Assembly (NCBI GenBank): GCA_032622095.1
Contig: CP136067.1
Coordinates: 40,715,549-40,779,548 of the forward strand
From: Siphonodentalium dalli
Taxonomy: Eukaryota > Mollusca > Scaphopoda > Gadilida > Siphonodentaliidae
Length of the DNA: 64,000 nt
Direction: 5' to 3'
Shown: one piece after another, positions 29,274 to 56,484 of the stretch
How the letters are laid out: the number at the start of each line of letters is the position of its first letter
How positions within the stretch are numbered: the stretch's first letter is position 1
Made by a program: the position numbers and the translations under genes
Notes under the pieces: model-generated
The model's input: the letters and a program-made list of their open reading frames with translations, nothing else
Databases searched by the model: none
What the model was told of the DNA's origin: nothing

Positions 29274-29274
29274 T

Positions 29275-31026: not shown

Positions 31027-33233
31027 CTAGCAGATTAGCCCGCCACTGGCGTGGTTGGTCAGAAACATGACATTTTTAAAATTATTTTGTTTTTATTTAT
31101 TTTGTTTTTGGAATTTTTTAATATTAATTTAATGTTTTTTAAAATGAATTTTTTTGTTTCTGGCGGAAAAATTGACCCGATGAAATCCCCCCTTCCTATG
31201 AACGACAGACAACGCATTGTTTGTTTTTCAATGAGATAATTCATGGTACCCGTCCTAAACATCTATAGTAGATTGGCAGATTCCAGTAGCTTTATAACGG
31301 TATATCTGGGGAGAAATCTGATGCTATATTCGTGATTGTCTGGGATGATTTCGGTATATACCGAATGTATGTTCTGTAAAAACAAAGCGCGCCATCCGTA
31401 CTCGCAGGGTTGGTCAGAAACATGACAATTTTTAAATTATTTATTTTTTTACGGGCTCGCCAATACGACAACGGCGACCACCTGGTCAAACTACACTCAC
31501 GTACCAAGTTTCGTCCCGATCATTCGAGGTGTTGGTATCTGATGCAAAAGACGAAATTGTGAGATTTGGTTTGTAACCGGGATTTCTGAGAAGCATTATG
31601 CATATATCCACACTAACTACCCCCCCCCCCCCTAAGCCCTGACCTAAGTGTCATACATACGATAACAATGATGTTGTAAGAGTACTATGGCAGCCAATAA
31701 ATCTCCCCGCATAGGAAACCACTCAATGTTCCCGTATATCTCTCTGCAGATACTAATAACGTTGAATGGTAAACAGACGCTCTTTATAGCGATGCGTCAA
31801 AAACAAACGCTCATTAAATAATCACTTGATTAACCACCGCAGTGCCGTTTTTTGTGACTGAGATGGAGAACGGGTGCTCTGAGCTTCTCCAAAACGCCGC
31901 GACGACGATTCCCGTGGGATTTTACCCTTAGATAGGAAGTTTGGTCCCGATCGGTCAACCCGTTTTCGATTCTATGAAGCACACATATATATACGGAAGT
32001 CTCAAAATATATAGTACAGATTGGCAGATTCCAGTAGCTTTAGAACGGTATATCTGGGTTGAAATCTGATGCTATATTCGTGATTATCTGGGATGTGACT
32101 GAGATTGGAGAACAGGTGCTCTGAGCTTCTCCAAAACACCGCGACGACGATTCCCGTGGGATTTTACCTTTAGATAGGAAGTTTGGTCCCGATCGGTCAA
32201 CCCGTTTTCGATTCTATGAAGTACACATATATATTGTTTCTGGCGGAAAAATTTACCCGATGAAATCCCCCCCCTTCCTAGGAACGACAGACAACGCATT
32301 CTTTATTTAACTTTTTTTTAACCTCCCCGTACCCATCCTAATGTCGTTAAATCTCTCTGCATAATATTTCGAGCGATAACATTGCATTGAATTGAAAACA
32401 AACACTTCCCGTCGTGAAATCTCTCTACGATAACATTGCATTGAATTGAAAACAAACGCTTCCCGTCGGGAAATCTCTCTGCACAATATTTCGAGTCTGC
32501 CGTACCCGTCCTAATGTCGTGAATCTCTCTGCATTGAATTGAAAACAAACGCTTCCCGTCGTGAAATCTCTCTGCATAATATTTCGAGCGACAGGCTACA
32601 GACTCCCGTCATACAGATAAGTAGATAGCGAAAACGACGCTCTTTATATAGACACTGCGGAAAACGAACGCTCTTTATATATCAACGCTATTAACCCCGA
32701 AGTGCCGATTGCGGTGATTTTGATGATTGGGAAGGGAGAAACGGTGCTCTGAGCTTCTCCAAAACGCGATCACGGCGGTGTCCGTGGGATTTTCCACTGG
32801 CGGCAATCGTCAGAAACATGACAATTTTTTTAATTAATTAATTTTTTTGTTTTTCAATGAGTTAATGATGAGCCCGACGTTGTCCGGGCTATTCAAAAAC
32901 CAAATTTCAAGTCGATAGCTCCACCCGTTTATAAGATCTGGTCTGCGCACGCGCGAAGCTGGCGTCGCACGAACTCGAACGCTCTTTATATCGATGCGTC
33001 AAAAACAAACGCTCATTAAATTATCACTTGATTAACCACCGCAGTGCCGTTTTTTGTGACTGAGATTGGAGAACGGGTGCCCTGAGCTTCTCCAAAACGC
33101 GATCACGGCGGTGTCGGTGGGATTTTACACTTACATACGAAATTTGAGCTCAATCTGTACACGCGTTTTCGATTCTATGAAGTACACACATATATACTCA
33201 CATATATACGGGAGTCTCAAAATATATAGTAGA
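31027..33233 (-). mobile_element. Helitron-like element 2 (2.2 kb, internally rearranged)
   Basis: The minus-strand start TCTACTATATATTTTGAG lies at 33233 and the end is CGCCAGTGGCG, spacer, CTAG at 31030-31027. The interior repeats the conserved 5' part (GTGACTGAGATTGGAGAACG, then CTGAGCTTCTCCAAAACG) near 31855, 32095 and 33055. It has decayed start-like sites near 31265 and 32015, a 32340-32600 mosaic of AAATCTCTCTGCATAATATT units, and opposite-strand sequence related to the 11786-12009 fragment. It probably contains several collapsed copies. Confidence 0.5.
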
Positions 33234-34267
33234 CTAGCAGGTTAGCCCGCCACTGGCGGCATTGGTCCCATGGCTTTGGTCGATCCATTAATTTTAGTTT
33301 TAGGTAACCCCGTACAGGACCGGGCTACTCAAAAACCAAATTTCAAGTTGATAGCTCCACCCGTTTCCGAGATCTGATCTGCGCATGCGCGAAGCTGGCG
33401 TCGCACGGGCTCGGCGACCCGATAAAATTCGTATCCGGGGCAAGATACATTCACATACCAAATTTCAAGTCGATAGCTCCACCCGTTTCCGATATCTCGT
33501 CTGCGCATGCGCTGCACTGGCGTCTCACGGGCTCGCCAATACGACAGCGACGACCACCTGGTCAAACTACACTCACGTACCAAATTTCGTCCCGATCGGT
33601 CGAGAAGATGGTATCTGATGCAAAAAACGAAATTGTGAGTGTTGGTCAATAGTCCCCGTCGTGAACCCCATCATCGCAAAGAGCGGACAGTCATTTAATC
33701 CCGTCGTGAACCTCCATCACCAACGCGACGTAAACATGTGTTGCGTTCTAAAAATAGGAAAGCACTTTCTCTCTGCATAATAAATTTCGATCGATAACGT
33801 TTGCGTAAATACGAAATTGTGAGTGTTGGTTTGTAACCGGGATTTCTGAGAAGCATTATGCCTATAACTACCCCCCCCTAAGCCCTGACCTAAGTGTCAT
33901 ACATACTATAACAATGATGTTGTAAGAGTACTATGGCATCCAATAAATCTCCCCGCATAGGAAAGCACTCAATGTTCCCGTATAACTCTGCAGATGCTAA
34001 TAACGTTGAATGGGAAACAGACGCTCTTTATAGCGATGCGTCAAAAACAAACGCTCATTAAATAACCACTTGATTAACCCACGCCGTGCTTTTGCGGTGA
34101 TTTGGGAGTGGATAAAGGGTGCGCAGAGCTTCTCCAAAACGCGACAACTACGGTGTTCGTGGGTTTTTACACTTATATACGTAATTTGAGCTCGATGGGT
34201 GCAGTCGTTTTCGATTCTATAAAGTACACGCACACATATACGGAAGTCTCAAAATATATAGTATAGA
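33234..34267 (-). mobile_element. Helitron-like element 3
   Basis: It starts TCTATACTATATATTTTGAG at 34267 on the minus strand and ends CCGCCAGTGGCGG (33259-33247), nine bases, CTAG (33237-33234), directly followed by the TC start of the next element. The length is 1034 bp, with no coding capacity. 33310-33640 carries GAGATCTGATCTGCGCATGC repeats also present in the fragment at 11786-12009. Confidence 0.6.
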
Positions 34268-35125
34268 CTAGCTGTGTACCCGTTCTGACGGGGAGAGTGG
34301 TTGTGTTGTTTTTTTTTACACCAACACCCCAAACATGGTGGAAATTGGCCCAGCGAATTCCGATATACAGGTTCAAGGTCATTTGAAAGGTCAATGTCAC
34401 GCCGCTACCCGTTGAAAATGTTTGGCTACCCGAACCATCCCTACCTACGACATTTCATCCCGATCGTCCCATCGGATCCTGAGATAGAGAGCCAAGGTCA
34501 CTCGAAGGTCAAGCCGCACGGGCATCCGGGTGTGAAGAAATTGCTCAGCGCCACACACTACCCGTTTCCACCAAATTCGGTGGAAATCGGCTCAGCGAAT
34601 ACCGAAATATGAGTTCAAGTCACTCGAAGGTCAAGGTCACGCCGCACGGACATAGGGACATACCCGTGTTACTCCTGAGGTCAACCTACACCAACACTCC
34701 AAAAATGGGGGAAATCGGCCCAGCGGATCCCGAGATACAGGTTCAAGGTCATTTAATAATTCAAGGTCATGCCGCAACCCGTTGAAAATGTTTGGCTACC
34801 CGAACTATCCCTCCCTATGAAATTTTCATCCTGATTGTCTCATCGGACCCTGAGATAGATATTCAAGGTCATTTGAAGGTCAAGGTCACGCTGCACGGGC
34901 ATCTCGGTGGGGCGAAATTCATTGGCATCCCCATTTATACCAACACCCCGAAAATTGTGGAAATCGGCCCAGAGGATATCGAGATACAGAATCAAGGTCA
35001 TTTGAAACGGCAAGGTCACACCACACGGGCATCCGGGGGCGCCTCAATATGCCCCCAAATACCAAAATTGGTCGAAATCGGCCCAGCAGGAGCCGAGATA
35101 GGGGTTGAAGGTAACTGGTCTTTAT
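34268..35125. repeat. Degenerate repeats rich in TCAAGGTCA, behind another Helitron-like 3' end
   Basis: CTAG at 34271-34268 (minus) is preceded by the hairpin CCCGTCAGAACGGG (34292-34279), marking a fourth element end abutting element 3. Its body is diverged repeats of GGAAATCGGCCCAGCG..GAGATACAGGTTCAAGGTCA and TTGAAGGTCAAGGTCACG, with about ten AAGGTCA words. The 5' end of this element was not found. Confidence 0.5.
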
Positions 35126-35640
35126 AAACGCTCTTTATTAGTTATTTAATAAATTATTTAACTCGCAGAAATGTTATATTAATTCCGTAAGTCTCAGAGT
35201 CTTGCATATTTTCAGTCCAAATTTCCGTATTTATAGAATCCGGGCATCGGTTTTTTTTATAAATCATATAAACAGTCATAGACAACGTTGTTGTTGTTGG
35301 CATTCAGTACACCGAAAATTCTCACATTGCCGTAAAGAGAAAATAGCATTGTGTGTATTTAGTAAAGTCTAATTTTATCTAATTATTTTATCGCCGTCAA
35401 AGTCCAACAATGTCGTTGTTGTCATTCACGGCTTGGTGCAACCGCCAGCCCTCCGACCAGACCAAAAGCGTAGCACCTTGTGGACAATGATGTTTAGAAG
35501 GTGATTCTTCCGTCGACCATTCTCCTCAAACCAACCTCGAAGTCCCCTGTGTTTTTTTTCTCACCCGGGGCTATTGCGGACCACACTTATCGGCTGGAGC
35601 ACCCCGAAAGAGGTGACCAACCCTTACGAGATGATCAAAT
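35126..35640. other. Unassigned
   Basis: It begins with AAACGCTCTTTATTAG (35107), a word recurring across several repeats in the window. No gene was recognised. Confidence 0.4.
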
Positions 35641-36399
35641 TGCCTGTCGGGGTCAGTTTAGTTTAGTTAACAATTGACTGAAAGTTGGTCAATATGTGGT
35701 TATCAATTGTTTAGTCGGGGGAGTTTTGACCCAACAGTTTAGTTAATAGTTGACTAACAACACTTTAGTCACAGTGTAGGGGCCAACATCGGAATCATAT
35801 AATGACTGTATCAACATTATCGAAATAACACTTTTGAATTGTCAAAACTATTTATATATCGAGCTATGCTTAGGGGCCCTATGATATTCCAATGTTAATA
35901 GATGCCTATAAGTGCCAAGGTGACGCTACTTGTACAAACTGAACACTATATGGCTTATAAATTCCAATAGTTTGATCATTTGTACTATTAAGTACATGTG
36001 TATATGCATGTGCTTCTTTGTCACACAACAGTATACTTGACAGTGTAAAGCAACACCAACAACCCTTAATTATGATTCAGACCGCCAAGGAATAGGTTAA
36101 CATCTGATGATCGTGATCGGCCTCTCGTTTATTTATTAAGTTGATTATGTGTATACGTTAAAGAAGTATTCCAAACACTGGGTCTAATATCAGTTTCACT
36201 TGACCATTATTACCCAATCAAATGTCCGCAAATGTTAATTGATTTCAACCAATAAAGTATCCTTGACATACTTTGTAATGACGCAATTCATCACGACGGT
36301 GGCATATTTAAATCAGAAATTTTAGTCCGGAAACGATCTTAGTTCGGAGCGATTGTACCGCAATTATTTCGTACTGTTTATAAAAGGTTCCATACACGG

Positions 36400-36854
36400 T
36401 GCAAAAACCGAAGATGCCCTGATTGCACAAACGATACATAATTTTCTGATAACAAAAAAAACAAAAAAACAAAAAAAACATTCCCAAAACCTCACTCACA
36501 TTATTCCTACTCGGTTCCACTCACACATGAATATTCATAGTATTCATTCAGTATATCGACCAAGTAGGTGCCCATACATATGAACCACTTTTTGTACCAT
36601 CGCCCTAACAACGCCTATATATACAAAAAAAACAGTCTGCACACGATAAACGTAACCTAAAAACAATCAAATTAATTCGGCCATCTTCATCATATAATCT
36701 GTCACCACGCCCAGGGGTGATAGGAAGACAGTCAGTCATGACTATATCACCCCTAGCAATATACATGTATAGTCTATCAATATTATATTTATTTGTAATT
36801 GTACTTTCCATGTGTGTATATTGTAAATAAAAATTATCCTATCCTATCCTATCC
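36400..36854 (+). mobile_element. Retroposon insertion with (TATCC)n tail in unit 1
   Basis: Compared with units 2 and 3, unit 1 is interrupted after CCATACACGG by about 455 bp that are absent from the others. The insert ends TTGTAAATAAAAATTATCC followed by TATCC repeats, a 3' end typical of non-LTR retrotransposons or SINEs. It contains a hairpin around AGGGGTGATAG / CTATATCACCCCT (about 36714-36756). It dates after the split of unit 1 from the other units. Confidence 0.65.
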
Positions 36855-36947
36855 GGGGTTTCGAACTATACGCACGGGAATGAGAAACGGGAAATTGACT
36901 TTGTGTGGCCCAGACGGAAAAGAGAAATACAAATTTCAAATATTAAC

Positions 36948-37214
36948 CTTTGACAGTAAGTGTGCCCATTGTAGACTTGTCCCCGATTATGCATTTGTAT
37001 TTAGCAGCGTCGTCCATAGCAACTGTTGGTATGGTGAGAGTATGAGTCAGGTCATCCGATGTCATTTGGAAGTGATCGTTTGGTTTAATCTCATTGGTTC
37101 CCTTGAACCATTTGGCCGTGACTTTTGGTTTTGAAACTTCTGCGGCCATTGTGACCTTCTCTTTCTCTGTGACGGTGATATCAGCCAGCTGTTTTGTGAT
37201 CTTAAGTGGTATTT
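36948..37214 (-). CDS. I-set Ig-domain exon, unit 1 (titin/twitchin/obscurin type)
   Basis: A 267-bp exon encoding 89 residues. On the minus strand it follows CTCATTGCAG and ends before GTTAAT. Split codons make both ends phase 1, so a neighbour's final G plus AA gives Glu. The protein reads EIPLKITKQLADITV (strand A), TAKWFKGTNEI (strand C Trp), LTHTLTIPTVAMDDAAKYKC (E-F region, the Asp-x-x-x-Tyr-x-Cys signature) and TMGTLTVKG (strand G). The strand-B cysteine is replaced by Ala. It differs from units 2/3 at about 15 of 89 residues. The donor GTTAAT is weaker than the GTGAGT of the other copies, so it may be skipped. In the family such domains act as elastic or scaffolding modules of giant sarcomere proteins. 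Confidence 0.8.
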
Positions 37215-39129
37215 CTGCAATGAGTGATCAATGTATTGTGTGACACAAATATCCATCATACATACAAGACAGTCAATGGCTGCTGAGACAATCAGCTGAC
37301 TAACGACTGAAAAGACAAACACCCAGAAGCATCCGGTTGTCAGTTCTTATCAAAGTCACTTAAAACAAGTAGTTCTAAACTGATATATAGCTAGAGCAAG
37401 GAGCTAAGTTAAATTTAAAAAAAAACAAATTCAAATATAAAAAAATATTTTTTATTTTGGTGTTAAATCAACATGGATAAATGTTCAAAATTCTAAGTCC
37501 TACATCTGACAATCAATTATCTTGATAAAGATACGTTTTACGAATTACTTTTGCAACAAAGAATTATGTCCCTGACTCTGTCCATATTTAACCCGGTGAT
37601 TTATTTTTTAATAAATGGAATCTGAGTCACACAAGGAAACTCCATACCATATAATAATCAAAATAGGCCTGATAAATGATCATACGTGACACGTAGAGGG
37701 GCAACCACACGCGATGCTTTGACGGATCCAGTTACTTTGTTTTGGAGGTGATTCATTCGCAACATTATCGATGCCCAATTAAGCATCATCCCAGTTAGAA
37801 CGGGCATGGTGCAAATTACTTGTATATGTGGAATATGGCAGGTCTCGGCGGCACTATGTACGTTATATAGTTCATTGGGTCGGGTCTGTGTGACACGGGA
37901 CAGAACACATTGTATTCAATATACAGCTCCTGTTAACATGCGCATCTCCACATCGCGATTTTTACCCACAATTTCACTCGTCTCCTATGTTCATCTCTAT
38001 GGAGGTCAGGGTCAAATTGATATCGTAGTGCCATGTGTCTGTTTGTCAGATACAAACTCAAGTATATAGGAGTTTCTTATCAAGGATAGCTATACGAGGC
38101 TTCTGGATATTGACACAAGCGCGTACATCGCAACACATATCTAGCGTAATAGCCCTTTCAGTGCGATGTCTTTTAACAATGGACAAGGTAATTTTAGGGT
38201 CAAGATCAAGGTGATATAAGCCCGCCACATCAACTTGACAACAAATTTGGTTGAGGTCCGATCTCGACTTCTCCCACCATGTCGACCCATTTTAATATGG
38301 ACATCGATTCGAACGTCATTGCTGACACCAACGCTGACAAAAGATTTCAAAAAAACCTTTTGCATGGCGATATTGATTGGAGTAGCCGGCAGGCGTCCAA
38401 TTCCTTTAGCGCGACGCAAACCGTGAAAGCTTCTCGCCGTGTTAGGCTAGATTGGTTCAATTATTTATCTCGAGACGGGAATTTATTGAAACTGTGTTCG
38501 CCTATTAGGGGCATATTCGTTAAGCGATTTGTCTGGAGGAAAAGTAAATGCGGCTAAGATTGCGGGCGCGTTATTACAAAACGCCATAACTAAGCACAGT
38601 CTTAACACACGAGGTAGTGCTATGCATCGCTGGAATGGGCACATCATTGGCTATTTCACCGTGCTGATTTGATTGTAAAGTAGGCACGTTTGCGTTGTTT
38701 TTTTTCGCATATATCTTGCGAAAACGGTTATCATTATATTTATATGTATGATAATTCGTAATGCCTACACACCATGCATCTACACGCTTTTGACTACTAA
38801 ACTAATTAAGAACGATTTCACCCAAGTGCAATTTCGCTGTGCTCAAGCGGAATTGCGCTGACATTAAGCGACATTGCGCTGTGCATAAGCGATCCAGCGA
38901 GTACACTTTAACCAACGAACGAGTACCAGCGTGGTTTCGGGGGCCAAATGCACACGCGCTGACTATTGCACTGAGCCGCACAATTGCAGTGTGGTCACGA
39001 TTGCACCGCATTGCACTAAATAGCAACGCATCCCAATTTCGCCGCGTTGTATCGAAATTTGCGCTACAATGACGCGTAATTACATAAAACTGCACCGACA
39101 TTGCACTGAAGCGCATTCGCACCGTATTG

Positions 39130-39480
39130 CAGCGACATTTCACTAGACTGAAGCGCAATTGCACTCCGCTGCGGTGGTATTGCGTTGCAATGAAGCGCAA
39201 TTGTACTGTGGTGCGGCGACATTGCGCTGCACTAAAGCGCAATTGCACTGCGGTGCGGCAACATGCGATGCACTGAAGCGCAATTGCACTGCTGGTGCGG
39301 GGACTTTGCGATGCACTGAAGCGCAATTGTATTGCTGGTGGGGCGAATTTGCGCTGCACCGAAGCGCAATTGCACTGCGGCGCGGCGACATTGCGCTAAA
39401 CTGAAGCGAAGTAGCACCGAGGCGCGGCGACATTGCACTGCACAGAAACGAAATTGCACAGTGGTGGAGCGACATTGCGC
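39130..39480. repeat. 42-bp minisatellite, unit 1
   Basis: The unit AAGCGCAATTGCACTGCGGT then GCGGCGACATTGCGCTGCACT recurs about every 40-44 bp for ~8 copies, with more degenerate copies from about 38830. Open frames on both strands (for example CRRTAVQLRFSAAQ) follow from the 42-bp period. Confidence 0.85.
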
Positions 39481-41571
39481 CGACCTGAAGTTGCCAATTT
39501 CAAAGCCGAGTACGCGCATTGGCAGTCTCCAGACAATAGCTAACCGGAAGTCACGTGTCATTTTTAAGAAAAAACGTACACGCCACCTGAATTTGGCTCA
39601 TCGCTATAGAAAATATAGAAACAATTATATGACGTCATCATTCACCTGCGCCCAAGGTATAAGCACCGATGGTTGCTATAAATGGATTATGTGTTACACA
39701 AGGAAACTCCATACAAAATAATAAACAAAATCGGCCTGATAAATCTTGCGTCAGTAATTTCAATGGCAGAACAGAGTTACGTCCGTGGCTCCGTCCATAC
39801 TCGACCAGCTAACCACATTTGAACAAAAAACCCTGTCAACTAATACTATCCGCACCACATTATTACCCAATCAAATCTCTGCAAGTGTTAATTAGTAGTC
39901 CACATAATTTATTTCACCCATTAAAGTAAAATTGCCACACTATATCATTACGACATTCATCAAGGCGTGGTGTATTTAATCGGAAACCAGTATAATGTGT
40001 ATTCCATTTATGATTACTAACACTAAACTATAAGGCATATCTCACCATAGTCCTTAGGTTTCGAATGGTAACACTAGCATTGGTATGCATTATCGATGGC
40101 ACGACATTGGTACACTATTTTTTAAGGTCATGTCTGGTGCCAAAACTATTTAGCCTACCGGATTACGCTACACTTCCTTTTTCAAGTCCTCGGTGATCGT
40201 TCATGTTCCGAGCTTGCGGGGTGGGGTGTTATTTAACTTTAGCTGTTTTGTTTTTCATACTTTTGTATATGTTAAGAAAGCCTATGGTCACACAATATTT
40301 AGTCACCTCTGATCCAATATTTAGTTACTTTTGACCCAATATTCAGTCACATTTGACACCATTTATACAGTCAAACATATCTCAATTTAATTAAAGGATA
40401 CTAAATATTTAGCTCATTTTATAACGCAATTACATTGGGTTACTTTATGTAATGCTTGGTTACCTATTGTGTTAAAATTTGACAAGATGTTTGGTTAAAA
40501 GTTAAATAACTAATTTTGACGCAATTGATTGGGATAAGATTAACAAAAATTCAGTTGGAGGAAAACGCGGTAACCCCATTTAGTTAGTAGACAGTTTGTC
40601 TCCTAATGTTTAGTCAGAAAGTTTTGACCCAACAGTTTGGTTAACAATTGACTGAAAGTTAGTTAGTCAATATTTAGTTTCCAATTGTTTAGTCCGAGGA
40701 GTTTGAACTAAAGGTTTTATTAAAAGTTGACTAACATTTAGTCACGCATAACTAAACTTTAATTACAGTGTTCGGGCCAACATCCTAATCATATTATGAC
40801 TGCATCGATAGTAACAATAACACTTTTGTATTTTCCAAGCTATGTTTCTGGCGAGCTATCCTGACAACCAGGGTATGATATATGATAATTTATCTCAGGT
40901 TATGGTTACTATGGTATCCCAGTGTTATTATACGACTACCAATGTCAAAGTGATGCTACTAATACAAAAGTGTGCACAATAGAGCACATAAATACCAACA
41001 ATTTGATCAATTGTGTTATTATGTACATTTTGGTACATTTGTTTATGCATGTGCTTCTTTAGTACATAACAGTATATATAACAGTATAATTCAAGACCAA
41101 CAACTGCAAATTATGATTCAAATCTCAGGGAATAGGTTAAACATTTGATGATCGTCTTCTGCCTCTCGTTAATTTATTTTGTTAATTCTGGGGGGGGGGG
41201 GTACGTCAAACAAGCGTTCCAACACCGGGTTTGATATCAGTTTCCCGTGAACAGTATTGCGCAATAAAATGTCCTCATATGTTAATTGATGGTCTCCGTA
41301 CGATTTATTTCACCCAATAAAGTATCATTGACATACTTTATAATGACCACTTCATCACGACGCTTGTGTATTTATTCACAAATGTGAATCCGGAAACGAT
41401 CTTAGTACGGAGCTGTTTGTATAATCGTAACGCAATTATTTCGTACTGTTTATAAAAGGTTGCATTCACGGCGTTTCGGACTATGCGCAAGGGACTAGGA
41501 AACATGGAATTGACTTTGTGTGGCCTAGACGGGAAAGAGAAATAAAAATAATTCAATTATCAAATACTCAC

Positions 41572-41838
41572 CTTTGACAGTAAGTGTGCCCATTGTAGAA
41601 TTGTCCCCGATTATGCATTTGTATTTAGCAGCGTCGTCCATAGCAACAATTGGTATGGTGAGAGTATGAGTAAGCTCCTCCGATGTCATCTGGAAGTGAT
41701 CGTCTGGTTTAATCTCATTGGTTCCCTTGAACCATTTGGCCGTGGCCTTTTGCTTTGAAACCTGTACGGCCATTGTGACCTTCGTTTTCTCTTTGACGGT
41801 GATATCACCCAACTGTTTTGTGAACATCACTGGTATTT
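41572..41838 (-). CDS. I-set Ig-domain exon, unit 2
   Basis: A 267-bp phase-1/phase-1 exon between acceptor CACTCACTGCAG and donor GTGAGT, 89 residues. It begins EIPVMFTKQLGDITV and has TAKWFKGTNEIKPDDHFQM, LTIPIVAMDDAAKYKC and TMGTLTVKG. The strand-C Trp and strand-F Cys are present; the strand-B Cys position is Val. Because both ends are phase 1, splicing it to any other copy keeps the frame, so copy number can vary freely. The gene runs on the minus strand, so the transcript order is unit 4, 3, 2, 1. Neighbouring exons outside the array are not in the window. Domain-family recognition is sure; the exact gene (titin, twitchin, obscurin or a kettin-like relative) is not. Confidence 0.88.
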
Positions 41839-43269
41839 CTGCAGTGAGTGAATAATTTATTATAGTGACATAAATATCCATCATGCATACACCAAGAGAG
41901 TCAATGGCTGTTGAGATGCTCCAAACTGTAACGACTGAAACGACTAGGACCTCCGAAGTATATAGTAGTCCGTACTCGTCGAAATCACATAAAACAAGTA
42001 GTTCTAAACCGGCACGTAGCTAGAGCAATGAGTTATGTTAAATTAACAAAAACAATTCAAATAAAAAAAACAAAAATGTATGTAACACAAATTATATATA
42101 TATTTTTTTTATTTTGTGTTTTGAATAAAAATGGCTAAATGTTCGACATTCTAATTACCACATCTGACAACCCATGGTCTTGAGAAAGAGACATTTTAAT
42201 AACTAATATCGGAGTTAAGAGTTATATCACTGGCTCGCTTCTTTATTACGTATCAGTTTACATAGCAGTACAATTTAACATCAACTCCAAATTATGATTC
42301 AAATCACCACGGAATAGGCTAAACATTTTAGAGTCAAGATCAAGGTGATATAAGCCCGCCACATCAACTTGACAACAAATTTGGTTGAGGGCCGATCTCG
42401 ACTGCTCCCACCATGTCGACCCATGTTAATATGGACATCGATTCGAACGTCATCGCTGACACCAACGCTGACAAAAGATTTCAAAAAAACCTTTGCATGG
42501 CGATATTGATTGGAGTAGCCGGCAGGCGTCCAATTCCTTTCGCGCGACGCAAACCGTGAAAGCTTCTCGCCGTGTTAGGCTAGATTGGTTCAATTATTTA
42601 TATCGAGCGAAATGATATGCCGCTGAAATGTTTGTGCCGCCAATTCTTTGCGAGACGGGAATTTATTGAAACTGTGTTCGCCTATTAGGGGCATATTCGT
42701 TAAGCGATTTGTCTGGAGGAAAATTAAATGCGGCTAAGATTGCGGGCGCGTTATTACAAAACGCCATAACTAAGCACAGTCTTAACACACGAGGTAGTGC
42801 TATGCATCGCTGGAATGGGCACAGCATTGGCTATTTCACCGTGCTGATTTGATTGTAAAGTAGGCACGTTTGCGTTGTGTTTTTACGTATATATCTTGCG
42901 AAAACGGTTATCATTATATTTATATGTATGATAATTCGTAATGCCTACACACCATGCATGTACACGCATTTGACTACTAAACTAATTAAGAACGATTTCA
43001 CCCAAGTGCAATTTTGCTGTGCTCAAGCGGAATTGCGCTGAGATTAAGCGACATTGCGCTGTGCATAAGCGATCCAGCAAGTACACTTTAACCAACGAAC
43101 GAGTACCAGCGTGGTTTCGGCGGCCAAATGCACACGCTCTGACTATTGCACTGAGCCGCACAATTGCAGTGTGGTCACGATTGCACTAAATAGCAAAGCA
43201 TCCCAATATCGCAGCGTTGTATCGAAATTTGCGCTACAATGACGCGTAATTACATAAAACTGCACCGAC

Positions 43270-43640
43270 ATTGCACTGAAGCGCATTCGCACCATATTGC
43301 AGCGACATTGCACTAGACTGGAGCGCAATTGCACTCCGGTGCGGTGGTATTGCGTTGCAATGAAGCGCAATTGCACTGTGGCGCGGAGACATTGCGCTGC
43401 ACTAAAGCGCAATTGCACTGCGGTGCGGCGACATTGCGATGCACTGAAGCGCAATTACACTGCTAGTGCGGTGACTTTGCGATGCACTGAAGCGCAATTG
43501 TAGTGCTGGTGGGGCGACTTTGCGCTGCACTGAAGCGCAATCGCACTGCGGTACGGCGACATTACGCTAAACTGAAGCGAAGTAGCACCGAGGCGCGGCG
43601 ACATTGCACTGCACAGAAACGAAATTGCACTGTGGTGGAG
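43270..43640. repeat. 42-bp minisatellite, unit 2
   Basis: Same minisatellite as at 39130-39480, in the intron between Ig exons 2 and 3, with a few substitutions and the same number of copies within error. Confidence 0.85.
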
Positions 43641-45751
43641 CGACATTGCGCCGACCTGAAGTTGCCAATTTCAAAGCCAAGTACGCGCATTGGCAGTCTT
43701 CAGACAGTAGATAACCGGAAGTCACGTGTCATTTTTAAGAAAAAACGTACACGCCACCTGAATTTGGCTCATCGCTATAGAAAATATAGAAACAATTATA
43801 TGACGTCATCATTCACCTGCGCCCAAGGTATAAGCACCGATGGTTGCTATAAATGGATTATGTGTCACACAAGGAAACTCCATACAAAATAATAAACAAA
43901 ATCGGCCTGATAAATCTTGCGTCAGTAATTTCAATGGCAGAACAGAGTTACGTCCGTGGCTCCGTCCATACTCGACCAACTAACCACATTTGAACAAAAA
44001 ACCCTGTCAACTAATACTATCCGCACCAACCATGACCACATTATTACCCAATCAAATCTCTGCAAGTGTTAATTAGTAGTCCACATAATTTATTTCACCC
44101 ATTAAAGTAAAATTGCCACACTATATCATTACGACATTCATCAAGGCGTGGTGTATTTAATCGGAAACCAGTATAATGTGTATTCCATTTATGATTACTA
44201 ACACTAAACTATAAGGCATATCTCACCATAGTCCTTAGGTTTCGAATGGTAACACTAGCATTGGTATGCATTATCGATGGCACGACATTGGTACACTATT
44301 TTTTAAGGTCATGTCTGGTGCCAAAACTATTTAGCCTACCGGATTACGCTACACTTCCTTTTTCAAGTCCTCGTTGATCGCTCATGGTCCGAGCTTGCGG
44401 GCAGGGGTGTTATTTAACTTTAGCTGTTTTGTTTTTCATACTTTTGTATGTGTTAAGAAAGCCTATGGTCACACAATATTTAGTCACCTTTGATCCAATA
44501 TTTAGTTACTTTTGACCCAATATTCAGTCACATTTGACACCATTTATACAGTCAAACATATCTCAATTTAATTAAAGGATACTAAATATTTAGCTCATTT
44601 TATAACGCAATTACATTGGGTTACTTTATGTAATGCTTGGTTACCTATTGTGTTAAAATTTGACAAGATGTTTGGTTAAAAGTTAAATAACTAATTTTGA
44701 CGCAATTGATTGGGATAAGATTAACAAAAATTCAGTTGGAGGAAAACGCGGTAACCCCATTTAGTTAGTAGACAGTTTGTCTCCTAATGTTTAGTCAGAA
44801 AGTTTTGACCCAACAGTTTGGTTAACAATTGACTGAAAGTTAGTTAGTCAATATTTAGTTTCCAATTGTTTAGTCCGAGGAGTTTGAACTAAAGGTTTTA
44901 TTAAAAGTTGACTAACATTTAGTCACGCATAACTAAACTTTAATTACAGTGTTCGGGCCAACATCCTAATAATATTATGACTGCATCGATAGTAACAATA
45001 ACACTTTTGTATTTTCCAAGCTATGTTTCTGGCGAGCTATCCTGACAACCAGGGTATGATATATGATAATTTATCTCAGGTTATGGTTACTATGGTATCC
45101 CAGTGTTATTATACGACTACCAATGTCAAAGTGATGCTACTAATACAAAAGTGTGCACAATAGAGCACATAAATACCAACAATTTGATCAATTGTGTTAT
45201 TATGTACATTTTGGTACATTTGTTTATGCATGTGCTTCTTTAGTACATAACAGTATATATAACAGTATAATTCAAGACCAACAACTGCAAATTATGATTC
45301 AAATCTCAGGGAATAGGTTAAACATTTGATGATCGTCTTCTGCCTCTCGTTAATTTATTTTGTTAATTCTGGGGGGGGGGGTACGTCAAACAAGCGTTCC
45401 AACACCGGGTTTGATATCAGTTTCCCGTGAACAGTATTGCGCAATAAAATGTCCTCATATGTTAATTGATGGTCTCCGTACGATTTATTTCACCCAATAA
45501 AGTATCATTGACATACTTTATAATGACCACTTCATCACGACGCTTGTGTATTTATTCACAAATGTGAATCCGGAAACGATCTTAGTACGGAGCTGTTTGT
45601 ATAATCGTAACGCAATTATTTCGTACTGTTTATAAAAGGTTGCATTCACGGCGTTTCGGACTATGCGCAAGGGACTAGGAAACATGGAATTGACTTTGTG
45701 TGGCCTAGACGGGAAAGAGAAATAAAAATAATTCAATTATCAAATACTCAC

Positions 45752-46018
45752 CTTTGACAGTAAGTGTGCCCATTGTAGAATTGTCCCCGATTATGCATTT
45801 GTATTTAGCAGCGTCGTCCATAGCAACAATTGGTATGGTGAGAGTATGAGTAAGCTCCTCCGATGTCATCTGGAAGTGATCGTCTGGTTTAATCTCATTG
45901 GTTCCCTTGAACCATTTGGCCGTGGCCTTTTGCTTTGAAACCTGTACGGCCATTGTGACCTTCGTTTTCTCTTTGACGGTGATATCACCCAACTGTTTTG
46001 TGAACATCACTGGTATTT
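45752..46018 (-). CDS. I-set Ig-domain exon, unit 3
   Basis: Located exactly 4180 bp from the unit 2 exon, with the same bases, splice sites (TGCAG / GTGAGT) and 89-residue product. Identity continues far into the introns on both sides, so this is either a very recent duplication or one unit counted twice by the assembly. If real, it adds one more 89-residue Ig module to the giant muscle-type protein. Confidence 0.85.
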
Positions 46019-47449
46019 CTGCAGTGAGTGAATAATTTATTATAGTGACATAAATATCCATCATGCATACACCAAGAGAGTCAATGGCTGTTGAGATGCT
46101 CCAAACTGTAACGACTGAAACGACTAGGACCTCCGAAGTATATAGTAGTCCGTACTCGTCGAAATCACATAAAACAAGTAGTTCTAAACCGGCACGTAGC
46201 TAGAGCAATGAGTTATGTTAAATTAACAAAAACAATTCAAATAAAAAAAACAAAAATGTATGTAACACAAATTATATATATATTTTTTTTATTTTGTGTT
46301 TTGAATAAAAATGGCTAAATGTTCGACATTCTAATTACCACATCTGACAACCCATGGTCTTGAGAAAGAGACATTTTAATAACTAATATCGGAGTTAAGA
46401 GTTATATCACTGGCTCGCTTCTTTATTACGTATCAGTTTACATAGCAGTACAATTTAACATCAACTCCAAATTATGATTCAAATCACCACGGAATAGGCT
46501 AAACATTTTAGAGTCAAGATCAAGGTGATATAAGCCCGCCACATCAACTTGACAACAAATTTGGTTGAGGGCCGATCTCGACTGCTCCCACCATGTCGAC
46601 CCATGTTAATATGGACATCGATTCGAACGTCATCGCTGACACCAACGCTGACAAAAGATTTCAAAAAAACCTTTGCATGGCGATATTGATTGGAGTAGCC
46701 GGCAGGCGTCCAATTCCTTTCGCGCGACGCAAACCGTGAAAGCTTCTCGCCGTGTTAGGCTAGATTGGTTCAATTATTTATATCGAGCGAAATGATATGC
46801 CGCTGAAATGTTTGTGCCGCCAATTCTTTGCGAGACGGGAATTTATTGAAACTGTGTTCGCCTATTAGGGGCATATTCGTTAAGCGATTTGTCTGGAGGA
46901 AAATTAAATGCGGCTAAGATTGCGGGCGCGTTATTACAAAACGCCATAACTAAGCACAGTCTTAACACACGAGGTAGTGCTATGCATCGCTGGAATGGGC
47001 ACAGCATTGGCTATTTCACCGTGCTGATTTGATTGTAAAGTAGGCACGTTTGCGTTGTGTTTTTACGTATATATCTTGCGAAAACGGTTATCATTATATT
47101 TATATGTATGATAATTCGTAATGCCTACACACCATGCATGTACACGCATTTGACTACTAAACTAATTAAGAACGATTTCACCCAAGTGCAATTTTGCTGT
47201 GCTCAAGCGGAATTGCGCTGAGATTAAGCGACATTGCGCTGTGCATAAGCGATCCAGCAAGTACACTTTAACCAACGAACGAGTACCAGCGTGGTTTCGG
47301 CGGCCAAATGCACACGCTCTGACTATTGCACTGAGCCGCACAATTGCAGTGTGGTCACGATTGCACTAAATAGCAAAGCATCCCAATATCGCAGCGTTGT
47401 ATCGAAATTTGCGCTACAATGACGCGTAATTACATAAAACTGCACCGAC

Positions 47450-47820
47450 ATTGCACTGAAGCGCATTCGCACCATATTGCAGCGACATTGCACTAGACTG
47501 GAGCGCAATTGCACTCCGGTGCGGTGGTATTGCGTTGCAATGAAGCGCAATTGCACTGTGGCGCGGAGACATTGCGCTGCACTAAAGCGCAATTGCACTG
47601 CGGTGCGGCGACATTGCGATGCACTGAAGCGCAATTACACTGCTAGTGCGGTGACTTTGCGATGCACTGAAGCGCAATTGTAGTGCTGGTGGGGCGACTT
47701 TGCGCTGCACTGAAGCGCAATCGCACTGCGGTACGGCGACATTACGCTAAACTGAAGCGAAGTAGCACCGAGGCGCGGCGACATTGCACTGCACAGAAAC
47801 GAAATTGCACTGTGGTGGAG
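47450..47820. repeat. 42-bp minisatellite, unit 3
   Basis: Identical in the lines compared to the copy at 43270-43640, 4180 bp upstream. Confidence 0.85.
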
Positions 47821-49797
47821 CGACATTGCGCCGACCTGAAGTTGCCAATTTCAAAGCCAAGTACGCGCATTGGCAGTCTTCAGACAGTAGATAACCGGAA
47901 GTCACGTGTCATTTTTAAGAAAAAACGTACACGCCACCTGAATTTGGCTCATCGCTATAGAAAATATAGAAACAATTATATGACGTCATCATTCACCTGC
48001 GCCCAAGGTATAAGCACCGATGGTTGCTATAAATGGATTATGTGTCACACAAGGAAACTCCATACAAAATAATAAACAAAATCGGCCTGATAAATCTTGC
48101 GTCAGTAATTTCAATGGCAGAACAGAGTTACGTCCGTGGCTCCGTCCATACTCGACCAACTAACCACATTTGAACAAAAAACCCTGTCAACTAATACTAT
48201 CCGCACCAACCATGACCACATTATTACCCAATCAAATCTCTGCAAGTGTTAATTAGTAGTCCACATAATTTATTTCACCCATTAAAGTAAAATTGCCACA
48301 CTATATCATTACGACATTCATCAAGGCGTGGTGTATTTAATCGGAAACCAGTATAATGTGTATTCCATTTATGATTACTAACACTAAACTATAAGGCATA
48401 TCTCACCATAGTCCTTAGGTTTCGAATGGTAACACTAGCATTGGTATGCATTATCGATGGCACGACATTGGTACACTATTTTTTAAGGTCATGTCTGGTG
48501 CCAAAACTATTTAGCCTACCGGATTACGCTACACTTCCTTTTTCAAGTCCTCGTTGATCGCTCATGGTCCGAGCTTGCGGGCAGGGGTGTTATTTAACTT
48601 TAGCTGTTTTGTTTTTCATACTTTTGTATGTGTTAAGAAAGCCTATGGTCACACAATATTTAGTCACCTTTGATCCAATATTTAGTTACTTTTGACCCAA
48701 TATTCAGTCACATTTGACACCATTTATACAGTCAAACATATCTCAATTTAATTAAAGGATACTGAATATTTAGCTCATTGTATAACGCAATTACATTGGG
48801 TTACTTTATGTAATGCTTGGTTACCTATTGTGTTAAAATTTGACAAGATGTTTGGTTAAAAGTTAAATAACTAATTTTGACGCAATTGATTGGGATAAGA
48901 TTAACAAAAATTCAGTTGGAGGAAAACGCGGTAACCCCATTTAGTTAGTAGACAGTTTGTCTCCTAATGTTTAGTCAGAAAGTTTTGACCCAACAGTTTG
49001 GTTAACAATTGACTGAAAGTTAGTTAGTCAATATTTAGTTTCCAATTGTTTAGTCCGAGGAGTTTGAACCAAAAGTTTTATTAAAAGTTGACTAACATTT
49101 AGTCACGCATAACTAAACTTTAATTACAGTGTTCGGGCCAACATCCTAATCATATTATGACTGCATCGATAGTAACAATAACACTTTTGTATTGTCCAAG
49201 CTATGTTTCTGGCGAGCTATCCTGACAACCAGGGTATGATATATGATAATTTACCTCATGTTAGGGTTACTATGGTATCCCAGTGTTATTAAACGACTAC
49301 CAATGTCAAATTGATGCTACTAATACAAAAGTGTGCACAATAGAGCACATAAATACCAACAATTTGATCAATTGTGTTATTATGTACATTTTGGTACATT
49401 TGTTTATGCATGTGCTTCTTTAGTACATAACAGTATATATAACAGTATAATTCAAGACCAACAACTGCAAATTATGATTCAAATCTCAGGGAATAGGTTA
49501 AACATTTGATGATCGTCTTCTGTCTCTCGTTAATTTATTTTGTTAATTCTGGGGGGGGGGGGGGGTACGTCAAACAAGCGTTCCAACACCGGGTTTGATA
49601 TCAGTTTCCCGTGAACAGTATTGCGCAATAAAATGTCCTCATATGTTAATTGATGGCTTCGTACGATTTATTTCACCCAATAAAGTATCATTGACATACT
49701 TTATAATGACCACTTCATCACGACGGAATATGGAATTGACTTTGTGTGGCCTAGACGGGAAAGAGAAATAAAAAGAATTCAATTATCAAATACTCAC

Positions 49798-50064
49798 CTT
49801 TGACAGTAAGTGTGCCCATTGTAGAATTGTCCCCGATTATGCATTTGTATTTAGCAGCGTCGTCCATAGCAACAATTGGTATGGTGAGAGTATGAGTAAG
49901 CTCCTCCGATGTCATCTGGAAGTGATCGTCTGGTTCAATCTCATTGGTTCCCTTGAACCATTTGGCCGTGGCCTTTTGCTTTGAAACCTGTACGGCCATT
50001 GTGACCTTCGTTTTCTCTTTGACGGTGATATCACCCAACTGTTTTGTGAACATCACTGGTATTT
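49798..50064 (-). CDS. I-set Ig-domain exon, unit 4
   Basis: The first of the four Ig exons in transcript order. 267 bp, phase 1 at both ends, acceptor CACTCACTGCAG and donor GTGAGT intact. The product matches units 2/3 except for one clear change, Lys to Glu in NEIEPDDHF (between strands C and D). The strand-B Cys is again absent, and the strand-F YKC is present. About 130 bp of the intron beyond the donor is deleted relative to units 2/3. The exon is open and appears functional. Confidence 0.87.
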
Positions 50065-51409
50065 CTGCAGTGAGTGAATAATTTATTATAGTGACATAAA
50101 TATACATCATGCATACACCAAGAGAGTCAATGGCTGTTGACATGCTCCAAACTGTAACGACTGAAACGACTAGGACCCCCGAAGTATATAGTAGTCAGTA
50201 CTCGTCGAAATCACATAAAACAAGTAGTTCTAAACTGGCACGTAGCTAGAGCAATGAGTTATGTTAAATTTAAAACAATTCAAATAAAAAATAAAAAAAT
50301 GTATGTAACACAAATTATATATATATTTTTTTTATTTTGTGTTTTGAATAAAAATGGCTAAATGTTCGACATTCTAATACCACGTCGGACAACCCATGGT
50401 CTTGAGAAAGAGACATTTTAATAACTAATATCGGAGTTAAGCGTTATATCACTGGCTCGCTTCTTTATTACGTATCAGTTTACATAGCAGTACAATTTAA
50501 CATCAAATCCAAATTATGATTCAAATCACCACGGAATAGGCTAAACATTTGTTGAACATGATCGGTCTCTCGTTAATGTATTTAGTTAATTATGTTTGTA
50601 CATCAAAGAAGCATTCCAACGCTGGCTATACTCGGTATATCAGTTTTCCAATCTAATGTCCGCAAACTGACGATTGATTTTATGTAACCCAATGCTTGGT
50701 TATATATTGTGTTCAAATTTGACTGGATATTGAGTTAAAATTTAACTAATTAATTTTTGACCAGTTGATTGGGTTACAACTAGCTAAATTGTGTAGGAGG
50801 TAACCCAGATTAGTTAGTAGATATTTAGTCACCCAATGTTTAGTCAGAAATGTTTGACCCAATAGTTTAGTTAACAATTGACTGAAAGTTGGTCAATATG
50901 TGGTTATCAATTGTTTAGTCTGTGGAGTTTTGACCCAATAGTTTAGTTAATAGTTGACTAACAACACTTTAGTCACAGTGTAGGGGCCAACATCCGAATC
51001 ATATTATGACTGTATCAACATTATCGAAATAACACTTTTGAATTGTCAAAACTATTTATATATCGAGCTATGCTGACGACCAGGGTATGATCTATGAATA
51101 CTCTTTCAGCTTAGGGGCCCTATGATATTCCAATGTTATTAGATGCCTACAAGTGCCAAGGTGACGCTACTTGTACAAACTTAACACTATATGGCTTCTA
51201 CATTCCAATAGTTTGATCATTTGTACTATTATGTACATGTGTATATGCATGTGGTTCTTTGTCACACAACAGTATACTTGAGAACGTTTCAGGTACCGGT
51301 GCTATGAACATTCTGCATTCAGGTACGTAATGCGGTGATACGGGTATCCCGTATCGTAAGGTACAAACAAATGTGTCAGCATTTGAGACTAAAGATATAT
51401 GTCAAATTG

Positions 51410-51835
51410 ACATCTGTGTTAGTGATGACGATGACGACAACGATAATGACGATGGCGGTGGTTGTTATGGTGACCAAACCGACGACGACTACGTTGATGA
51501 CAATGATGATAATAATAAAGACGACGACGATATTGTTATTGTTGACGACAATACTGATGATGATTTCGATGACAAGGATGGTGATGATGAGGTGGATGGT
51601 GACGATGGTGATTATGACAGCGATGATGATAACGACGATGATGGCGAGGAAAACGATGGAGGTGATGATGATTGTGATGATGATGATGATGATGACGAGG
51701 CTGATGATGTTGACGACGATGATGTTGAAGATGGCGATTGTGAAGACGACGATGTTGGTGATGATGACGATGATGTTGATGATGATGATGGTGAAGACGA
51801 CAATGATGGTGAGGGTAATACGAGTGAAGGTGTTG
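51410..51835. repeat. GAY-type acidic microsatellite
   Basis: Imperfect GATGATGAC/GACGAC repeats. On the plus strand they read as poly-Asp with Glu and Gly, in frame with the LINE endonuclease that follows (the frame spans 51373-52242). Other frames give Met/Thr-rich, Ser-rich and His-rich products of the same repeat. Confidence 0.85.
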
Positions 51836-53187
51836 GTAAGGTAAAAGTATTAGCACTCAATGTTGGTAGCTTACGTAAGCGACTACATTATCCAGAATTC
51901 ATTTCATTACTGAACAAATTTGACATAATCTGTCTGTCAGAAACAAAGCTATTCGCGGGTGAATCGATTGATATACCTAACTTTGACGTTGTGTCACAGA
52001 GGGGAAGGCCAACATCAGGCAACAGTCGTGCAGGTGGATTACTTGTTGCCACTAATCGGTTAACAGGTATAAAAGTGAAAAGCATCGATTGTGCTTTGGA
52101 GAACATGTTATGGGTTAAACTTTCAACCCATGATAACGTTACCTCACGATGCCTTCTTATTGGTGTTGTTTATATTCCCCCAGAGAATACAAAATATGTT
52201 AATAATAACTGGAATGCAGAATTAGAAGGGGAGCTTCTTTAATGCCCGCACAGCGCGCTTAGATGATCGTATTGAGTTAACAACCGACTCACACCCTGAG
52301 ATCACAAACCCTCACTTGTGCGAGTATATGTTCGATTGTGATAATATGGCCACTTTTGATATTCCGGAAAGATGTACCGATGACACTGGTAAACCTAACT
52401 CATGTGGCTATAAACTAATTCACACCTGTCAATTTGGGAACATATATATACTGAATGGTCGCGTTGGAAAAGACAAGGGGATTGGCAAACGAACATGCCG
52501 CAATGCAAGTTTGGTTGATTATGCCATTGGATCGAGGACTGTTTTTGCTTATGTTACTGATTTTGAAATATTAGATTTCTGTTATCTTTTTTCTGACGTC
52601 CATTGTGGACTTAGTGTCCAACTAGACTTACGACATTTGAGTACTGCGCGTACAGTCGATGTGGCGAATGACAAGGTAAGTTTTGCGTTGGGACTGAGGA
52701 TAAAACCATGGGATAACATCAAGTCTGAAGAATATACGAAACACGTCAGCGAACGTCTTGATGCATTACGTAACATGATGAACTGTGTGGAAATGAATCC
52801 CGCAAGACATGGTATAAAAAATCGTGTTTTATCGGAATCGGCAGTTGATACATTTGGGACTTACCGTGAACGCAACAAGCGTACATAACAAACATGCAAA
52901 CCAGATCAGAGGTGGTTTGATTATGAATGTCGTAGTTACCGAAAGAAATTCAATTCTGCGCGGAAACGATATAACAGAAATAAGTCAAAAGCCACCAAAT
53001 CTGATCTAAGACAGGTTAGTACAGGGTATAAGAAAATTATGGACAGAATACGGTCGGAAATGCTCACAAAATGTAATAAGGAATTGAGGGAAATTCCCAA
53101 CAAGTCTACAAATACATTTTGGTGTACGTTCAAAAGATTCTCAAAGTGTAAAGTTCAGCAAATGGATAACCCGATTAGTTTAAATTA
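51836..53187 (+). pseudogene. Non-LTR retrotransposon fragment: endonuclease and linker, no RT
   Basis: 51841-52230 reads VKVLALNVGSLRKRL, then DIICLSETKLF (metal-binding Glu), GGLLVATNRL and LLIGVVYIPPENT, the first two thirds of a LINE apurinic endonuclease. A small deletion near 52240 destroys the usual GDFN motif; reading resumes in another frame as FNARTARLDDRI. 52316-52888 gives ILNGRVG, GIGKRTCRNASLVDYAIGS and DFCYLFSDVHCGLSV, the Ser-Asp-x-His end of the nuclease. After a further frame change 52905-53150 reads WFDYECRSYRKKFNSARKRY and NTFWCTFKRF, the linker before the polymerase. The reverse transcriptase is absent. It lies upstream of, and opposite to, the Ig gene. Confidence 0.85.
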
Positions 53188-54800
53188 GTCCAGGAGATCG
53201 GGAGGTAGTGTTGCTCATATTGACGGACAAGCTGTGACCATGTTATTTTTAATGTTTTAGGTATGGTAATGAAGAAAAATCATGATAGCAAGAACAAATT
53301 TGTAGCCTTCTTTGTTTTTTTTCAATGTGTAAAGATTTCATTTTAGTATGATTTTGGTGATTAAGTTGAATAGTAATTGTGTTAATAATGTTAAATAACT
53401 AATTGTGCTAAAAAAAATGAAGAATTTCAATGTTTCTTTTCTCAATTTTTTACCATTTTGTTTTACTTTTTTACGCAAAATCGTCCAAATTGCAACCATT
53501 TCATCTTAGTATGATTTTAAGGTTAAATTCACCATAATTATTTTAATATTGTTAAATAATTTACAACTTGGCTTCTACAATGTTTTTAAATGGATTTAAG
53601 AAGGTTTCTACTTGTTTTCTAAGTTGAGGGGTGGTCTAATTCAAATCCAATTAAACATTGTACTGTTCAAAATTAGATACATTCCTTAAGGCGTATGGTA
53701 GATATACGTAACTAGTTTTCAAAACGTATACATATGCCTTTCTATCCTGTGCGTTATGCACGCGAGTCGGATTTTACAAATTAAATTATGATGAAAAACC
53801 CAGAATTTTGGGTGTGGTCACAGTTGTGGTCATAATATTCCGATTAGAGAGTGGATGGACATGGGGCATGCGACACTGTGCAGTATAATGTATATAACAA
53901 GCATGACATGATACATTAGTATCTTTCTACTAAACTGTGCTTCCAGAGTTATCAGGAATCGAGTATCAGTGTTATTTCTTACCCCCAAAAAATGGTCAAT
54001 TTTAAAATGGGGTATGTGTGTCAAAGGACCACTGGGAGATAATAGGATGTCCAATGACTCCTATATTTTTATCGTATCACAGTAAAGCTTTTTTTGTAAA
54101 ATTGGCGCGGTTTACACGATCATAGTTCGATTTTCTTTACAATTATATGTTACAAGCAACTAATTATATAGAGTTACGCTTCTTGAACTCGAGTCAGCAT
54201 AACACAAACATCTGGCTGCTGATTGGTTGATTATCATTGAGGGAAATATCCCTAATCGGGAACAGAAAATCATAGCCTACGTAAATATGGCGATCGTGTA
54301 TGTTTAGATGTCCAGGAAGAGTCTGGTGGTGTCCAGAAGTTACGGAAGGGGTCTGGATATGTTTATGCTGCTGATTTTTGTGCAGTAAATGGGGTAGTTG
54401 TGGAAATGCAAGATTATCGTTTAAAAAAAATACCGAAAAGGGCACGTTTGTTGTAACACACTTGTGCAGCGGATGACGTTCTAAGGGAAAATTGACCACT
54501 TGAAGTTCAAATAGGCTTAACCCATAGCCGGCGGGACTTTTAGTTAACACTGTCGCCTATGGAAAATAATTAAGTGTTTGTAACCTATAGATACGAAGCT
54601 TCGGTACATTAATTATTATTCATATATTACTATATTTAAATCATATTTATACATACAGTCGGCGTCGAAACAAAAACATGAATGTACCGATTATTCGTGA
54701 CATTCAAGTTAAATGTTCAATAATAGAAAATTATACTGTGACCGGTTCATTCAACATGAAGTTAATCAAGGTGCATCTTTATTAATAACAGTATACAGTA
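53188..54800. other. Unassigned AT-rich sequence
   Basis: Contains T-rich and TTAAAT-rich stretches, with ATTTCATTTTAGTATGATTTT at 53336 and a related TTTCATCTTAGTATGATTTT at 53499 (degenerate ~163-bp repeat). No exon was recognised. Confidence 0.4.
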
Positions 54801-55860: not shown

Positions 55861-56480
55861 TTTGGTCTATAAATCCCGTAGTGTGACACATTTAATATAG
55901 ACCAAAACAATAAACACCTTTCAACCCAAAGATAATTACATTTTAATTGAAAAAATGGTCCAAACATGAAAAGTTAATTTTTGCCGATATTTAAGTCAAG
56001 TTTTTGAGAGAAAAGTCCAATATTTTTGGTGATGTCAGTGGTGACAATAGTAACAATTAACCATGGTACATGTTAGTATTCAATGTATAGAAGGCAGAAT
56101 GGCCAATTTTGTACATCGTCCACAACTTGTAATCGATTGCAGGACACGCTGGGGCAATATTTACCATTTTCCATATTTTGGCAGCCATTTTGAGCCAAAG
56201 TAAGAATTTTGGTTCCAGTGAGTTGGAATATTCATAGGTATAATCATATGCATCAATTACATTACAAAGTTCTGTTCATTTCTTGTTAAAATATGACTAT
56301 AATCCCAATTGTGATTTGTTTGCGAAATTTTATACCGCGTTCTGTAAATTCAAATTTTGAGGGAAACGGAAGGGGCTAGGACCCCAAAAAGTGCATATTT
56401 AATTGCCCCTATGATCAGTTAATATACAAAATACAAAATAAAGTCGCATTACACAACCAGTTCCAAACAGCATGAATCGA
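55861..56480. other. Unassigned
   Basis: No exon, RNA or repeat was recognised; an interspersed GGCAGCCATTTTGAGCC phrase occurs near 56180. Confidence 0.4.
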
Positions 56481-56484
56481 TCTA

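Follow-up and report, generated by a model that had tools for sequence, protein, structure and literature searches.

Intact copies of one symmetric immunoglobulin exon lie off the titin-type region in the scaphopod Siphonodentalium dalli

The human genes TTN and NEB contain intragenic segmental duplications, with exon blocks that vary in copy number and that in TTN comprise nine exons inside an expressed gene (PMC9142044, in the part of that account available). Mammalian pseudogenic exons, which are duplicated single exons with immunoglobulin-like domains among the commonest, are by definition broken by stops or frameshifts and were sought near the parent gene (PMC2718932, as far as the available text of that study goes). 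The subject here is a 64,000-bp stretch of the Siphonodentalium dalli genome (the window; positions 40715549-40779548 of contig CP136067.1, called C7, in a nine-contig genome of 2.23 Gb), which carries four copies of a 267-bp exon encoding an immunoglobulin (Ig) domain of the I-set type. As in the TTN and NEB duplications, exon-bearing blocks derived from a giant muscle gene are repeated with little divergence and their copy number changes, but the units here hold a single exon and lie off the gene, which is on another contig. Duplicated single exons are common to this locus and the pseudogenic class, but the copies here are intact and far from their parent. In being both off-gene and unbroken, the case differs from TTN/NEB blocks and pseudogenic exons alike. 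The Sp185/333 clusters of sea urchins, as portrayed in the available part of PMC5103432, are also repeat-rich and prone to change, but they consist of whole clustered genes of an immune family. Titin/twitchin/projectin-type genes (human TTN and, in this genome, probably a region on contig C4) resemble the array in their I-set domains, in having one symmetric phase 1-1 exon per domain and in the titin structures that come nearest; unlike them, the array is off-gene, and neither Fn3 exons nor further Ig exons were found in its surroundings. To our knowledge, the Sp185/333 protein is unrelated to the Ig exon of the array. No description of an off-gene titin exon array was found in the titles and abstract openings of the literature searched, and one may still be in print.

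On balance, the array would be part of an off-gene and probably still translated family of one symmetric Ig exon, with its parent in the titin-type region of C4. DNA copies of the exon, together with non-coding flanks, are present at C7:3.1-4.7, C7:37.9, C7:40.75 and C6:61.7 Mb; they have been multiplied in tandem units, and their number has been altered by recombination between repeats (six versus four), given correct assembly. Since both ends are of phase 1 and the splice dinucleotides are kept, any number of copies could splice in frame, conceivably into some transcript other than that of the titin gene. At least some copies would be or have been translated, with selection preserving both reading frame and Ig core and leaving surface residues to drift. 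Exon shuffling is usually deduced afterwards from old genes; here parent, single copies, arrays and a fresh recombinant share one genome, and the exit of a domain exon from its gene, its multiplication and its retention or loss can be traced stepwise. If the copies are translated, one symmetric exon can seed new proteins.

The exon family and its parent on C4

An earlier note, made from the sequence of the window alone, had described four 267-bp minus-strand exons of phase 1 at both ends, each encoding one I-set domain, and this description proved exact, coordinates included (Table 1). Each of the four is preceded by AG and followed by GT and contains no stop. Pfam I-set was matched by all three window open reading frames (ORFs) scanned (copies 1, 2 and 4; E 1.8e-14 to 3.5e-13), and the nearest solved structures to the Ig domain were titin Ig domains; the idea of one symmetric, titin-like exon per Ig domain was thereby borne out. 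Copy 4 differs from copies 2 and 3 in one residue (K to E), and copy 1, at 84% protein identity, is an older relative. From copy 1 to copy 4 the exons start 4624, 4180 and 4046 bp apart, and positions 38471-45542 match 42651-49725 at 98.8% identity over 7,087 aligned columns, so that the array comprises two nearly identical units of 4,180 bp and a portion of a third, in keeping with the duplicated units 4.0-4.6 kb apart of the same note. About 138 bp of unit A are absent from unit C, at 49725/49727. As they run over kilobases at 97-99% identity, the repeats were judged real without a chance model.

Table 1. Exon copies, repeats and related features (positions within the window unless a contig is given)
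Feature	Position	Strand	Description
Ig exon copy 1	36948..37214	minus	267 bp, phase 1-1; older type, donor GTTAAT; I-set E 1.8e-14
Ig exon copy 2	41572..41838	minus	267 bp, phase 1-1; donor GTGAGT; I-set E 3.1e-13
Ig exon copy 3	45752..46018	minus	267 bp, phase 1-1; identical to copy 2
Ig exon copy 4	49798..50064	minus	267 bp, phase 1-1; I-set E 3.5e-13
Tandem unit A	38471..42650		4,180 bp; carries copy 2
Tandem unit B	42651..46830		4,180 bp; carries copy 3; within 98.8% match to unit A
Tandem unit C, partial	46831..50550		carries copy 4; pieces 97.1% and 97.7% to unit A
Dispersed repeat R1	41893..42210		starts 55 bp upstream of exon copy 2
Dispersed repeat R2	41227..41455		downstream of exon copy 2
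Stretch matched directly to C7:37.883-37.911 Mb	32571..53696	plus	
Recombination switch interval	37756..37878		left type to 37775 (one right-type site at 37756), right type from 37878
Off-gene copies	C7:37.89-37.91 Mb		six
Off-gene copies	C7:40.75 Mb		four, in the window
Off-gene copies	C6:61.68-61.70 Mb		six
Off-gene copy	C7:4.74 Mb		one
Off-gene copies	C7:3.08-3.25 Mb		four

A search of the genome with the exon protein gave 37 matches (80/80 candidates scored), 15 of them distant and 22 close. All 15 distant matches (28-42% identity) fall within C4:35.2-35.46 Mb, whereas of the 22 close ones (65-100%) one is the parent in the C4 region and the other 21 are off-gene, on C6 and C7. An exon-only DNA query, for which the divergent copy at C7:3.246 Mb was used with E up to 1, returned the identical 22 places and nothing more (22/22 candidates scored). 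This search contained no partial or decayed exon copies, all 22 spanning the whole exon, although very old copies may escape it. No stop codon was present in any of the 22 copies, and frame and AG/GT were kept in every one, a single copy having a 3-bp in-frame deletion that shifts its GT by three bases. The hallmark of pseudogenic exons, a frameshift or premature stop, was found in none of the 21 off-gene copies. The earlier note had named missing flanking gene exons, together with an isolated pseudogene cluster, as findings that would speak against its proposal; such exons are indeed missing as far as searched, but no broken copy was found.

The parent exon, at C4:35,208,073, sits at the border of two parts of a region in which all domain matches are on the minus strand, an Ig-rich part being followed by an Fn3-rich part with some Ig matches. 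Many of the listed I-set matches lie at C4:35.04-35.48 Mb (best 150 of 805 candidates scored); of the 121 Fn3 matches listed, 60 fall within C4:35.04-35.20 Mb (best 150 of 376 candidates scored), and 10 kb of the region contain eight Ig ORFs, the parent and one cut by the end included (iterated profile, six-frame ORFs of at least 30 aa). From this layout we infer that C4:35.04-35.48 Mb is a titin-type gene, and probably a single one; a varied set of Ig and Fn3 exons gathered at a single locus characterises the C4 region and was not found at the window array. Two exons neighbouring the parent have no close off-gene copies, their matches outside C4 (E up to 1e-6) being the array copies themselves at 30-40% identity, so the escape looks specific to one exon, as judged against these two neighbours.

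Coding constraint on the copies

The earlier note had assumed that all four window copies are used; for the copy family as a whole, the selection signals favour coding use. In neutral forward simulations on a tree of the 17 distinct sequences (three substitution models, 1,000 runs each), stops were expected in 7.1, 8.6 and 8.4 of the 16 off-gene tips, compared with none observed, and runs without a stop made up fractions of only 0.002, 0.001 and 0.001. Among 17 aligned off-gene copies, four near-identical ones being left out, one distinct gap pattern fell within the exon, compared with 18 in the flanking sequence (binomial p 9e-5, counting each pattern as one event). Mean divergence among 16 aligned off-gene copies was 0.116 for the exon itself, compared with 0.166-0.190 for its flanks. 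At 18 pre-chosen Ig core positions, 0.44 extra residues per site were found versus 1.27 elsewhere (permutation p 0.0002), and core variability was as low in 0/500 neutral runs under each of two models.

Several observations weigh against continued translation. The ratio of nonsynonymous to synonymous differences (nd/sd) among off-gene copies was 2.85, compared with simulated means of 3.04, 2.98 and 2.79 (P 0.39-0.57, 200 runs per model), and even for the core alone it was only weakly low (P 0.06-0.10). The median pairwise ratio of nonsynonymous to synonymous substitution rates (dN/dS) was 0.75 in 132 of 136 pairs, those of the parent included. Donor sites differ among copies (GTGAGT, GTTAGT, GTTAAT and GTTTGT), and no companion exon, promoter or start was recognised near the off-gene copies. 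Gene conversion may also have given the copies a shared history, and the simulations were run without gene conversion. Outside the core, nd/sd was neutral (P about 0.5), and pairs with the parent gave dN/dS values of 0.15-0.50. Taken together, the data are read to mean that frame and fold are weakly constrained and the surface is free to change; they are not read as proof of use.

Held more tentatively is the proposal of a free-standing exon cassette family, in which the 21 intact copies on two contigs, their frame maintained and their Ig core conserved as the surface drifts freely, would contribute to at least one new protein made of Ig domains only, with unequal recombination setting its length by way of the number of copies in the array; if true, it would display exon shuffling and gene birth at an early stage. 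That the array is instead an untranslated orphan, its exons having been carried along by segmental duplications within a zone rich in repeats and being intact through youth and luck, appears rather unlikely. Such an origin would accommodate the neutral-like nd/sd, the dispersed repeats adjoining the exon and the lack of companion exons. It would also fit the comparison of unit blocks between C6 and C7, where non-exon blocks (87-88%) are about as similar as exon-bearing ones (85-88%); one of these non-exon blocks, considered for further coding exons and checked in five copies, was rejected on account of stops in all frames. It sits less well with the absence of stops and frameshifting indels, with the conserved Ig core and the lower divergence of exon than of flanks, and with the absence of any decayed copy from the genome search, a loose first look that very old copies may escape. 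Were it nevertheless correct, the family would offer a clean test of how long an unused, intact-looking exon survives.

Two further candidates for the use of the copies were rejected by eye. For a single-exon mini-gene, an in-frame ATG is present about 13 codons upstream in several copies but is absent or out of frame in others. The second was a very short intron, about 47 bp long, directly behind the donor: the copies have the GT...AG layout in common, but a stop immediately follows in the parent.

Spread of the exon and change in copy number

Most off-gene copies align with each other from about -230 to +330 or beyond around the exon; the alignment of the copy at C7:3.246 Mb begins only at -35, and that of the copy at C7:4.742 Mb stops near +350. 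Between the parent and the off-gene copies, similarity extends no further than roughly -6 to +319, which may reflect lost alignability at a synonymous divergence of 0.29-0.46. R1-derived sequence lies upstream of the exon in nearly all aligned off-gene copies, and part of R2 lies downstream in several, as might be expected if the exon were the cargo of a mobile element spreading through the genome. This is improbable, given that R2 was absent from 10 R1 loci and R1 from 6 R2 loci, about 2.2 kb being read at each. Inverted repeats around copy 2 amounted to short pairs, a single one of which (17 nt, 88%, AT-rich) brackets the exon. No element ends were recognised at the exon flanks in these examinations of R1/R2 pairing and inverted repeats, target-site duplications not having been searched.

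Returning to an off-gene family that multiplied in tandem, a change in its copy number can be followed at a near-identical second locus, C7:37.883-37.911 Mb, which lies 2.86 Mb away and holds six exon copies versus four in the window. Beyond the directly matched stretch, probes 14001-18000 and 56001-60000 also match the C7:37.9 Mb locus, at 99% and 100%. From the first to the second shared exon, the second locus exceeds the window by about 6.6 kb, and its two extra exon copies lie there. When the window junction was compared with the left and right 1.03-kb repeats of the second locus, which are 96.3% identical (31 mismatches, 3 gaps) and can be told apart at 110 sites, a switch from left to right type was mapped, some sites at the edge of the alignment being unclear. 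Differences between the two C7 loci number 19 in 4,771 sites plus five gaps left of the switch and 5 in 15,813 sites plus four gaps right of it. The window junction is a recombinant of the second locus's repeats, and two copies were lost by unequal recombination, barring misassembly. As the repeats are 96.3% alike, the loci are near-identical and the window junction switches type, the six-copy state is the older and the four-copy state arose by loss. The copy-number change by unequal crossover that had been proposed for the array is thus upheld, and near-identical exon blocks with a copy number altered by recombination, as in TTN and NEB, are present here, given correct assembly.

It is hardly probable that uncollapsed haplotypes or misjoined repeats in the assembly account in part for the copy number and for the second locus. 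The near-absence of differences right of the switch could be so explained, and other Ig/Fn3 loci are also present as near pairs, but the copies on C6 and at C7:3-4.7 Mb are too divergent to represent haplotypes of a single locus. Nor was haplotype duplication at a constant offset apparent with the one probe used, from C7:39.3 Mb, which had no listed copy at the same offset (best 40 of 7,198 candidates scored) and whose relatives nearby lie in inverted orientation, with 85-99% identity depending on the piece.

Segments at C7:39.300, 38.11 and 41.71 Mb, between or beside the array loci, are inverted segmental duplicates (85-99% by piece) and mark a duplication-rich zone. At C6:48.7/49.1, C6:228.3/228.8 and C4:264.5/265.2 Mb, Ig/Fn3 loci occur as same-score pairs on opposite strands, which are inverted or assembly duplicates. 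A second tandem duplication, at C7:3,204,411-3,218,000, consists of 6.3 kb at 99.65%, 7.3 kb apart, with one off-gene Ig exon in each half.

Surroundings of the off-gene copies

When ORFs of 30 aa or more in all six frames were surveyed with an iterated profile, the known copies were the only Ig ORFs in the 64-kb window, in 28 kb at C7:37.9 Mb, in 30 kb on C6 and in 38 kb around the C7:3-4.7 Mb copies. Pfam matches of minus-strand window ORFs were to Ig families only (122 ORFs scanned out of 137 listed, each 48 aa or longer and located above position 20 kb); ORF and Pfam surveys of this kind can miss short exons or exons without a known domain. No kinase was matched by the 122 ORFs, and no kinase search aimed at C4 or C7 was made. 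Among ORFs from C6, C7:4.74 and C7:3.08 Mb (135 of 240 listed), the Ig exons were matched together with GIY-YIG in two ORFs and reverse transcriptase in one; one of the GIY-YIG ORFs, when re-examined, was slightly below the curated cut-off. On C7:37-41 Mb there was no Fn3 among the matches listed (best 150 of 376 candidates scored), and the sole listed I-set match between the two C7 loci, at 39.74 Mb, is about 1 Mb from the window array (best 150 of 805 candidates scored).

The placement of the array inside a gene of titin/twitchin type on C7, proposed in the earlier note and favoured by its titin-like sequence and exon symmetry, is very improbable in view of the missing Ig ORFs, the lack of listed Fn3 matches, the distance of the one I-set match and the location of the titin-type region on C4. 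As the array lies outside that region, the suggested lengthening of a muscle-spring protein is unsupported.

The window contains no RNA families at gathering score and no tRNAs. A minisatellite occupies 26737-29342, its minus-strand frames (up to 418 aa) encoding a repeating 'NGPxIKQxI'-like peptide; the 418-aa frame had no Pfam match above the cut-off. An Ala/Gly-rich open frame of 270 aa at 25745-26557 on the minus strand, also with no Pfam match, ends in Cys-Ile-Val-Met, which we take to resemble a prenylation (CaaX) box. At 51331-53188 on the plus strand lie frames preceded by an Asp-rich stretch; the two that were scanned had no Pfam match, and we assume a resemblance to non-LTR retrotransposon endonuclease. 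Finally, a 2.19-kb dispersed element at 14329-16516 has 38 other scored copies at 88-92% (best 40 of 15,406 candidates, the window and its twin locus included), and its two ends are inverted matches of one another for some 120-130 bp, so that it looks like a terminal-inverted-repeat DNA transposon.

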